Program-made: the position numbers and the translations under genes
Assembly: GCA_025677825.1 (NCBI GenBank)
Contig: JAIXMO010000023.1
Location: 186,001 to 250,000, forward strand
DNA length: 64,000 bases
Source: Helicostylum pulchrum
Taxonomy: Eukaryota; Mucoromycota; Mucoromycetes; Mucorales; Mucoraceae
Direction of reading: 5' to 3'
Shown here: positions 31,929-47,313 of the stretch, in pieces
Layout of the letters: each line of letters begins with the position of its first letter
How positions within the stretch are numbered: the first letter of the stretch is position 1
The notes under the pieces: model-generated
What the model was told of the DNA's origin: nothing
The model's database searches: none
The model's input: only the letters and a program-made list of their open reading frames with translations

Positions 31929-33464
31929 TTAAATTACTGTTTGAAGTGCAGTAAGGATTGTTTGTAACCCCTTTTTATCATCTGCAAAAAATTGGTAAGA
32001 ACCATTTTGTTCGGTTTCCAATACAAATGCATTAGGAACAAAAGTTTCGATATCGACATTAACACTGTTTAATCGAATGACGCTCTTCAAGTCAAGAACG
32101 ATAACAGGTGTAGTTTGTAATTCGTCTCTAAAAAAGGCCATACTCTTTCCTTTAATTGTGAAATATCTACGTCTCCAAAACTATATATTTAACGAGTTAA
32201 AACAAGTTTTTTTTTGTTACTTTTCGTTAATTAAATTACTTACGGGACTGGTATGAGGTTGTACTGACACGTAACCGGAAAGAACAACATCTTTATTCTT
32301 TTCAGCTTCCATAATTCTTTGTTGAAACAATTTCTTTTCTTCTTGTACACGAACTTGTTCCATTTGCTCACGTTGAATTTTATCTTCCTCGGCTTTCTTT
32401 GCAGCGACTTCTCTTTCGGCAGCAATACGCTTGGATTCTCTTTCAGCAGCTACAGCAGCAGCAACAGCTCTATCTTCTTCCTTTTTTCTATTCAATTCAT
32501 CTTGTTCTTTAGCTGCTGCTGCTTCTGCTTCCAATTGCTGTTGCTGTAACTTGTTTTGATCATCAAGAGTTTCTTGAGTGACAACAGATGGTAAAGACTC
32601 ATTAGCATCCACAAATTCGCTTTGAGGCATAGATGTAGTAGTAGGACTGGTAGGAGTTTGAGGCATGGCTGTAGTAGGACTGGTGGGTGATTGCACGGAT
32701 TGTCGACGAGAAGCTCTCTTTTGAGAGGTAGAGGTAGATCTACGGGGAATTTGGCTGTCGCCCAACTTGAGTCGAGTACGGATATTTGCATCGCTTAAAT
32801 CATTAGTTGTGGAAGCGGTTAATTGAGCATTATGAAGCTTTAAAATTGCTGCAACAGATCTACTATGCACGAGTGCTCGTGCTAAATTTATATATTTGTG
32901 TTAGTTTTATTTTTTCGTACTCCATAGTGTTTGTGTTTTACCTCGTCGAACACCACTATATAAAAAAAAAGAAGGTTTTTTTTTTAGTTTTGATGGTAAC
33001 TTGTAATATAATGCAATTTCTTTTTTACCTGACTTGTTCAGATACCCAAGTAATTAAAATAAATCTATCATCTACTCTAACAAAACCGTATAATACTTCA
33101 TCACGTAAATTATTTCGGAATTCACTACACAAATAAAAAAAAACATTTAAAAAGCTTATTTTTTTTTAAAAAGGGAAAGTGGGTATTTTACTTTAAACCT
33201 TCAGAACCTTTTGAATATAAAGAAATAACGTCTCTGGTATCATTGTAACCGAGAATAAGCCTAGTATTTAGTTTTTTAGTTTTTTTTTTTTACAATTTCG
33301 AAATAAAAGGTGTCATCATCATCTTTTTTTTTTTTTCTTTTTTTTTTTGTAAATGAAGATGGGGAACCACCTTTTTTTTTTTTTGTATTTTACCAGTTAG
33401 TGGGTTCTTCTTCTACAATAGAGGTATAAGTTTCAAGAATACGAGGATCTGACAAGTCACACAT
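31929..33464 (-). CDS. Coactosin-like ADF-H domain protein with coiled coil and C-terminal PH domain
   Basis: 379 aa; exons 33394-33464, 33192-33260, 33029-33124, 32942-32955 (14 nt), 32244-32881, 31929-32180 (minus). ADF-H domain at about 1-110: WLILGYNDTRDVISLYSKG, DEVLYGFVRVDDRFILITWV, SEQVSGVRRARALVHS, which follows coactosin closely (LITW, V-S-G-x-x-R-A-K). Then a Ser/Thr/Pro linker with TSPTT repeats, a long charged helix (about 190-280, Glu/Lys/Ala/Arg) and a PH domain (FWRRRYFTIKGKSMAFFRDE to the end; lost C-terminal helix LQTILTALQTVI). ADF-H binds actin filaments and PH would give phosphoinositide or protein targeting. The combination suggests an actin-membrane linker; that role is inference. 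The 14-nt exon encodes SGVRR and is required for the domain. Confidence 0.85.
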
Positions 33465-46349: not shown

Positions 46350-47313
46350 ATGGTCTTATATTATACTAGTAACCGTAAGTTGTGTATTTCTTTTTCATAC
46401 GCTTGAGCTAATTTTGTTTTATAGTTGTCGACCCTCCTGTCACCATTTATATGGGAAAGGATAAATTTGAAAGTAAATATTTTTTGAACCCCTTTTTTTT
46501 CTTCTTTTGTTGACTGATGAATGTATAGATGATGACTTGATTACTTATGGCTTTCCTGAAGATATTTGGTAATAAAAACGAAAGGGCACACTTTTTTTTT
46601 AAAAAAAAAAACTCTTGTTAATAACATTTATTATTAGGGTAAAAAAAAAAAATACAAATATGCATCACTCAAAAAAAAAAAAAAAACCTAAAATCATTTT
46701 GCATGATTTTTTTTTTTTTATAGTTCCATGTTGATAAACTTTCTAGTGCACACGTATACGTTCGATTACAACCTGGACAAACATGGCTTGATATTCCTCA
46801 AGAAGTAGTTGAAGACTGCGCTCAGCTTGTAAAAGCCAACAGTATTGAAGGTAATAAAAAGAACGGCATCACGGTCATTTACACACCTTGGGATAATCTT
46901 AAAAAGACACCTGGTATGGAGACAGGACAAGTTACTTTCCATAATAATAAAAAGGTGAAGCGTGTGTTTGTGGAGAAACGTATTAATGAAGTGGTTAATC
47001 GATTAAATAAGACCAAGGTGGAAAAGTTCCCTGATCTTCGATTAGAAAGAATTCAAAGAGAAAAGATTGATAGAAAGAATGCTAGATTAGATGAATTTGC
47101 AGAGGTATAAAATGGAAAAAAAAAAAAGTTGGGGTTTTTATAGAATAACTAATATAGGCGATAAAATAGAAAGAAAAGGCTCGTATTTTATCCGAGGAAA
47201 AGAAGAGGGCAGAAAAGGAAATCAATGATATGTTTGATCCTACTCAAATGAAGTCTAATTGGAGAGAAACCGAAGTTGAAGATATTAATGAAGCTGAAGA
47301 AGATTTCATGTAA
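46350..47313 (+). CDS. CCDC25: CCDC25 homologue (NFACT-R domain), with a one-nucleotide exon
   Basis: 212 aa; exons 46350-46374, 46425-46472, 46529-46568, 46638 (single G), 46724-47104, 47170-47313. Order as in animal CCDC25 (208 aa): [84 protein letters not shown], then a charged helix and final EEDFM. The NFACT-R domain is shared with Rqc2/NEMF; human CCDC25 has been described as a DNA sensor at membranes, while the ancestral role is unclear. Exon 3 ends in TG (phase 2) and the next long exon starts in phase 0 with TTC CAT. The G between AG (46636-46637) and GT (46639-46640) supplies the third base of the conserved Trp codon. Both flanking introns (69 and 85 nt) are canonical. Confidence 0.88.

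Follow-up and report, generated by a model that had tools for sequence, protein, structure and literature searches.

A probable single-nucleotide exon in the nuclear CCDC25 gene of Helicostylum pulchrum (Mucorales)

The CCDC25 locus

The window—the whole stretch of 64,000 nucleotides analyzed here—comprises bases 186001–250000 of a contig of 452,374 bases (C85) from an assembly of Helicostylum pulchrum (Mucorales), which assembly consists of 168 contigs with 32,194,346 bases in total. Positions 46350–47313 of this window, when spliced as listed below, encode a CCDC25 (NFACT-R_1) protein of 212 residues identical throughout (100%, 212/212) to a deposited H. pulchrum hypothetical protein (EDC94DRAFT_520570, here P0001), whose sequence includes the Trp that the single-nucleotide exon would supply. 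P0001 scored 117 bits against Pfam PF05670 (NFACT-R_1; cut-off, 29.8), and the spliced product resembled the solved CCDC25 chain 7eof_B over residues 1–179 (E 3e-64); both results place the protein in the CCDC25/NFACT-R_1 family and, together with the identity to P0001, bear out the gene assignment made in a preliminary description of this DNA. The main exon matches the H. pulchrum genome once. The features, all on the plus strand, are the following:

46350..46374, plus strand: CCDC25 exon 1, with the ATG start of the product identical to P0001
46375..46424, plus strand: intron 1, 50 nt, GT-AG
46425..46472, plus strand: CCDC25 exon 2
46473..46528, plus strand: intron 2, 56 nt, GT-AG
46529..46568, plus strand: CCDC25 exon 3, 40 nt, ending GAT ATT TG (phase 2)
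46569..46637, plus strand: intron 3a, 69 nt, GTAATA...ATTATTAG
46638..46638, plus strand: probable single-nucleotide exon (G), which completes the Trp38 codon as its third base (TG/G/TTC)
46639..46723, plus strand: intron 3b, 85 nt, GTAAAA...TTTTATAG
46724..47104, plus strand: CCDC25 main exon, phase 0, starting TTC CAT GTT (PF05670, 78.1 bits; cut-off, 29.8)
47105..47169, plus strand: last intron, 65 nt, GT-AG
47170..47313, plus strand: CCDC25 last exon, with the stop TAA

Judged by eye, a divergent minus-strand gene seems to start at about 46172, some 180 bases 5' of the CCDC25 start at 46350, and the region between the two, which holds long runs of A, C, and T, suggests a shared promoter.

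Splice sites and reading frame at the single G

A GT at 46569–46570 directly follows exon 3, and an AG at 46636–46637, a GT at 46639–46640, and an AG at 46722–46723 come after it, so that a single base, the G at 46638, has a canonical AG immediately before it and a canonical GT immediately after it; all the coordinates previously given for the interval 46529–46760 were exact. From exon 3 to the main exon there are 155 bases, and a direct joining without the G results in a frameshift with early stops, which outcome confirms the earlier statement that a single combined intron of 155 nt would be out of frame.

We enumerated the splicing solutions with GT or GC donors at 46529–46722, AG acceptors at 46560–46880, and introns of at least 40 nt, taking in all single introns and all GT-AG intron pairs. 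Three GT-AG pairs preserved the frame, all three of them through the lone G at 46638, and among the enumerated canonical solutions only the pair 46569–46637 plus 46639–46723 yielded the conserved WFHVDKL. Two single GT-AG introns were likewise in frame, one with the acceptor at 46746 (...EDIC-AHVY..., 8 residues fewer) and the other with that at 46842 (...EDIC-IEGNKK..., 40 residues fewer), as were six single GC-AG introns, all with the donor at 46550, by which the region is removed. The enumeration and the identity to P0001 thus make the G at 46638 necessary for both the frame and the conserved protein sequence. The earlier assertion that this base offers the only way of keeping the frame and the Trp-Phe pair stands for canonical introns; it does not extend to a non-canonical TA-AG or GT-TA intron, which would give the same mRNA.

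On the strength of the enumeration, the identity to P0001, and the models of related species considered below, we infer that the G at 46638 is present in the mRNA, and we put at about 0.92 the probability that the nuclear CCDC25 (NFACT-R_1) gene includes this base, the originally proposed single-nucleotide exon, constitutively.

Splice-site scores and chance occurrence

The two putative introns were compared with 208 reference introns that a simple gene finder predicted on 267,375 bases of the same contig, all of them of at most 110 nt and ending in TAG or CAG, whose length range (median 65 nt, 5–95% 54–92 nt) was partly set by that 110-nt cut. Against these, intron 3a had a donor at the 13th percentile, an acceptor at the 69th, and a total at the 25th, while intron 3b had a donor at the 54th, an acceptor at the 97th, a branch-point match at the 3rd, and a total at the 40th; the weak elements are therefore the donor of the former and the branch point of the latter. 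Each of the flanking introns is plausible on its own, though with that weak branch point in intron 3b, and the earlier view that sizes of 69 and 85 nt are normal for this genome is supported. The total of the undivided 155-nt intron fell at the 12th percentile of the same 208 introns. With the higher of two intron penalties, the introns of our gene finder formed a clear peak at 50–90 nt plus a flat tail of long predictions, which tail we take to be mostly false; we regard the proportion of introns of at least 150 nt (67 of 320 predictions) as a maximum.

When the intron interior was shuffled 4000 times with its dinucleotides preserved, 97 of the shuffles contained an AGGGT flanked by 45 nt or more on either side; when non-coding stretches from the same contig were substituted in place, 62 of 1794 did so. 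At a workable spacing, the pentamer occurs by chance in 2.4–3.5% of the controls. Two introns both scoring as well as observed were found in none of the 4000 shuffles and in none of the 1794 non-coding stretches.

CCDC25 protein models in other fungi

Three protein searches, from each of which the best 120 of thousands of matches were taken, gave 185 proteins that we sorted by hand according to the displayed name into 42 named Mucorales or Umbelopsidales models, 107 further rows carrying a source name (a group that takes in the Endogonales model P0055 and three EukProt rows that give no organism), and 36 unnamed rows, which were set apart. Each row is a cluster at 90% identity, and several species appear more than once. 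Among the matches listed, 27 of the 42 Mucorales and Umbelopsidales models were broken at Trp38-Phe39 versus 7 of the 107 others, a difference whose Fisher p of 6e-13 is descriptive only, since the rows are not independent. The Trp-Phe-His core was intact in 100 of the 107 listed models from outside those two orders and was present in 28 of the 36 listed rows without a source name. Of these 42 models, 11, 7, and 3, respectively, were gapped at or lacked the other three exon junctions, and none was so affected at two control points within the main exon; among the 107 listed models from outside the two orders, 49 had a gap at the last exon junction, owing to the divergence of that end of the protein.

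The 27 broken models took the forms DIC-AHVY (5), DIC-IEGNKK (1), ED-FHV (7), Trp followed by inserted residues (6), frame-shifted (2), and truncated at or after the junction (6). Six of them—the DIC-AHVY models of Thamnidium, Mucor plumbeus, Choanephora, Cokeromyces, and Rhizopus delemar, and the DIC-IEGNKK model of Mucor circinelloides—thus display the very in-frame detours computed from the H. pulchrum locus, an agreement that would put the end of exon 3 at TG for these fungi as well. The codon readings at the relatives' junctions are deduced from the amino acids of the protein models. The seven ED-FHV models, which are without the Ile/Val-Trp, would fit the use of a GT inside a Val codon, and the W-Y-... 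of two Phycomyces models and one Umbelopsis model would fit a read-through of TG/GTAY. A Val stands directly after the Trp in Mucor saturninus (IW-VIYFNFV-FHV) and in Absidia (IW-VSHTN-FHV), and P0021 and P0032 read ...IW-V...; a read-through of TG/GT cannot give that residue because the next codon would begin with T, while AG/G-GTN gives Val, so that in those two fungi the gene callers seem to have used the micro-exon acceptor and then run on to a later donor. The open reading frames P0042, P0054, and P0059 enter FHV from apparent intron codons, so that the main exon begins at phase 0 in them as well.

In five species an intact model and a broken one occurred side by side, the aligned parts of each pair being almost the same (173/175, 203/204, 196/202, 208/210, and 210/210 identical residues). 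One broken model, P0018 (HPULCUR_008198), comes from H. pulchrum itself and starts M-FHVDKL; the prefix HPULCUR probably denotes strain KT1b, whose genome was described as a PacBio HiFi assembly annotated with Funannotate, RNA-seq not being mentioned (PMC11385716). The NFACT-R_1 scores were 117 bits for the intact P0001, 82.4 for P0003 of the DIC-AHVY form, and 77.6 for the truncated P0018. The 15 intact models among the 42 are what transcript-supported models would look like, which agreement is no proof of the single-nucleotide exon in those species, and the 6 broken models that are just 5'-truncated may have other causes. When the main exon was scanned against viral and prokaryote genome contigs, no relative turned up, which is unsurprising with fungal DNA.

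Alternative explanations

The preliminary description had itself named, as what would overturn its reading, a G missing from the assembly. Were one base lost, be it where exon 3 ends (a GGG having been shortened to GG) or where the main exon begins, an ordinary 155-nt intron would keep the frame. A single-base change would be enough, homopolymers are frequent at the locus, and the score of the undivided intron, at the 12th percentile, is low but possible; the assembly has TTTGGTAAT and ATAGTTCC at this locus. The comparative evidence nevertheless speaks against such an error, which we consider very improbable: the same junction is broken in 27 of the 42 listed models, which come from many species and assemblies and among which is P0018 (HPULCUR; M-FHVDKL), a model belonging to a second H. 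pulchrum genome, and an in-frame ordinary intron would have left the gene callers no need for detours; the error would, moreover, leave the AGGGT at a workable spacing as a coincidence of 2.4–3.5%. Hardly any probability, in like measure, attaches to a single non-canonical intron of 155 nt cleaved one base off (TGG/TAATAA...ATAG/TTC or TG/GTAATA...ATA/GTTC), with 46638 left unused. The protein would be the same, and transcript aligners unable to place an exon of one nucleotide might draw precisely that intron, but TA-AG or GT-TA borders would be required despite a GT and an AG lying one base away; the AGGGT with two normal-scoring introns around it, a combination found in 0 of 4000 shuffles, would go unexplained; and the Val directly after the Trp in P0021 and P0032 fits AG/G-GTN.

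That the true mRNA should use a single in-frame intron up to the main-exon acceptor at 46746 (...EDIC-AHVY) appears more improbable still: that intron is bounded by GT-AG, and five of the named models listed were built in that manner, yet WFHVDKLSS would be replaced by one Cys, the NFACT-R_1 score would drop from 117 to 82.4 bits, and the AHVY form does not match the deposited P0001, while 100 of the 107 outside models listed have an unbroken Trp-Phe-His core and the conserved stretch of 13 residues is present in the solved chain 7eof_B. Finally, the overlapping AG and GT resemble a recursive, or ratchet, splice point, and 46638 could be conceived as part of one within a single intron, without a coding role. 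Ratchet points consist of AG/GT with nothing retained, whereas here one base lies between the two dinucleotides and is required for the frame; juxtaposed splice sites of this kind have been described in long fly introns, the present intron being of only 155 nt, and we attach next to no credence to this last explanation.

Proposed splicing mechanism and origin

For the single-nucleotide exon that we favor, introns 3a (69 nt) and 3b (85 nt) would be ordinary short spliceosomal introns, each recognized by intron definition, and since introns this short are presumably recognized across the intron, two sets of factors would not have to be accommodated on so small an exon. The 3' and 5' splice sites would meet in the pentamer AG-G-GT, where a successive rather than a joint removal is probable because an AG and a GT one base apart are hardly usable at the same moment; a stepwise removal of introns was proposed by Guo and Liu for APC11 (PMC4674806). 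The order of removal can be envisaged as follows: should intron 3a leave first, the joining of exon 3 to the G would leave ...TTTG-G/GTAAAA, a fair donor for intron 3b, and the predicted mRNA junction would be ...GATATTTG-G-TTCCATG..., read as TGG TTC (Trp38-Phe39), while skipping of the G at 46638 would entail a frameshift and early stops. As to the origin, either a lost base might have been rescued by a cryptic AGGGT, an option raised by Nelson and Syed (PMC12940212), or, as we ourselves suggest, two introns might have been gained one base apart.

Other tiny-exon candidates in the contig

A search for tiny exons on both strands of the 267,375 bases found, with thresholds that were relaxed afterwards and with the locus already known, the base at 46638 as the only single-nucleotide exon that lies between a pair of acceptable introns and has coding sequence on either side of them. 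The stricter first scan (exons of 0–12 nt, 60 coding bases required upstream) returned no single-nucleotide exon, that at 46638 included, along with one candidate of 0 nt and one of 9 nt; the locus was missed because exon 3 provides 40 of the 60 coding bases required. The relaxed scan, over 0–30 nt, gave one match each at 0, 1, 9, 14, and 15 nt and two each at 26, 27, and 30 nt.

Among these other matches, a zero-length candidate (GTGCAG/GTAAGC) at about contig position 88832 on the minus strand, outside the window, has well-scoring introns of 75 and 70 nt and coding flanks, and may reflect chance or else a ratchet-like point within an intron of 145 nt. Inside the window, a candidate micro-exon of 14 nt (TGGTGTTCGACGAG) at 32955 on the minus strand, near the start of a minus-strand open reading frame of 217 aa, is flanked by two introns (73 and 60 nt) whose splice sites score highly. 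The remaining candidate micro-exons were one of 9 nt at about contig position 149210 on the plus strand and one of 15 nt at about 25854 on the minus strand.

Comparison with known single-nucleotide exons

As a kind, the single-nucleotide exon is already known from the plant genes APC11 and VPS55 and from Fusarium CYP621A. The earlier remark that none was known in fungi gives way before the last of these: the CYP621A P450 genes of Fusarium contain a single-nucleotide G exon within the pentamer AGGGT, with support from RNA reads (PMC12940212, February 2026). The case resembles ours in being a fungal nuclear gene whose G exon in AGGGT completes a codon of a conserved motif and whose automated models are wrong, and the introns are likewise short, amounting together to 139 nt in F. 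graminearum versus a median intron of 56 nt (PMC12940212). The differences are that CYP621A belongs to the Ascomycota, is an unrelated gene, has the central base of a glycine codon as its exon, and is documented by RNA reads, whereas in CCDC25 the exon would be the third base of a Trp codon, is predicted from sequence, and has a signature in the models across Mucorales and Umbelopsidales.

The APC11 gene of Arabidopsis likewise has a constitutive exon of one nucleotide between AG and GT, which exon is required for the frame and for which a stepwise removal under intron definition was proposed (PMC4674806); that exon is, however, an A within 422 nt of intronic sequence and was proven by protoplast mutants, the altered exon base being recovered in the cDNA, in contrast to the predicted G between short fungal introns in CCDC25 (PMC4674806). 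In VPS55 and the APC11 of land plants, widely conserved exons of one nucleotide are also absent from the reference annotations, with short or altered protein models as the consequence, but their inclusion is alternative in some species and was proven by RNA-seq and RT-PCR (PMC8831610). For soybean APC11, an aligner that was not supplied with the exon put the reads in the wrong place (PMC8831610). Exons of a lone base occur in organelles as well, in the placozoan cox1 (PMC5436844) and between group II introns in the fungal rnl (PMC12308204); the genes and introns are mitochondrial and not spliceosomal. We found no mention of CCDC25 among the open-licence articles listed on microexons, Mucoromycota, and splice sites, and within the open-licence literature searched the gene would be the second fungal nuclear gene with a single-nucleotide exon and the first in the Mucoromycota.

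Age and significance of the arrangement

All five of the named Umbelopsis models listed were broken at the junction. Two uninterrupted open reading frames of 212 residues that contain the Trp, P0028 and P0033, lie on contigs of 915 and 1065 bases and are identical to those models at 201 of 212 and 164 of 184 aligned residues; we infer that both represent cDNA. The same intron-G-intron arrangement would appear to be common to the Mucorales and the Umbelopsidales. Among the matches listed, the single Endogonales model (P0055) was intact, as were all 23 named models that, from their genus names, we take to be of the Mortierellomycotina; an intact model is no proof of the absence of the arrangement, which may have arisen on the line leading to the Mucorales and the Umbelopsidales. 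The seven broken models from outside those orders (P0047, P0134, P0144, P0148, P0150, P0157, and P0158; Calcarisporiella, Basidiobolus, Rhizophlyctis, Spiromyces, Elasticomyces twice, and Aspergillus chevalieri) all restart exactly at Phe39, which coincidence hints at an intron at that place in other fungi. The Calcarisporiella model has the ED-FHV form, as do several from the Mucorales.

We lean toward the view that the single-nucleotide exon of CCDC25 is ancient, having been present in the ancestor of Mucorales and Umbelopsidales—with a possibly wider distribution—and retained by selection on the overlapping splice sites. The gene occurs from fungi to animals and the Mucorales have many sequenced genomes, and the trouble apparently caused by an exon of one nucleotide, which annotation software seems often to overlook, is visible in the public databases, where 27 of the 42 models listed in our sample were broken. 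That pattern suggests that gene-model breakpoints recurring across relatives could be mined for further single-nucleotide exons. A series of species is thus at hand for the questions of which intron leaves first, how an AG and a GT with a single base between them serve in turn, and by what means so small an exon persists. If the above view is true, CCDC25 would hold a fungal single-nucleotide exon kept for a very long time and would furnish a natural series for the successive use of overlapping 3' and 5' splice sites.
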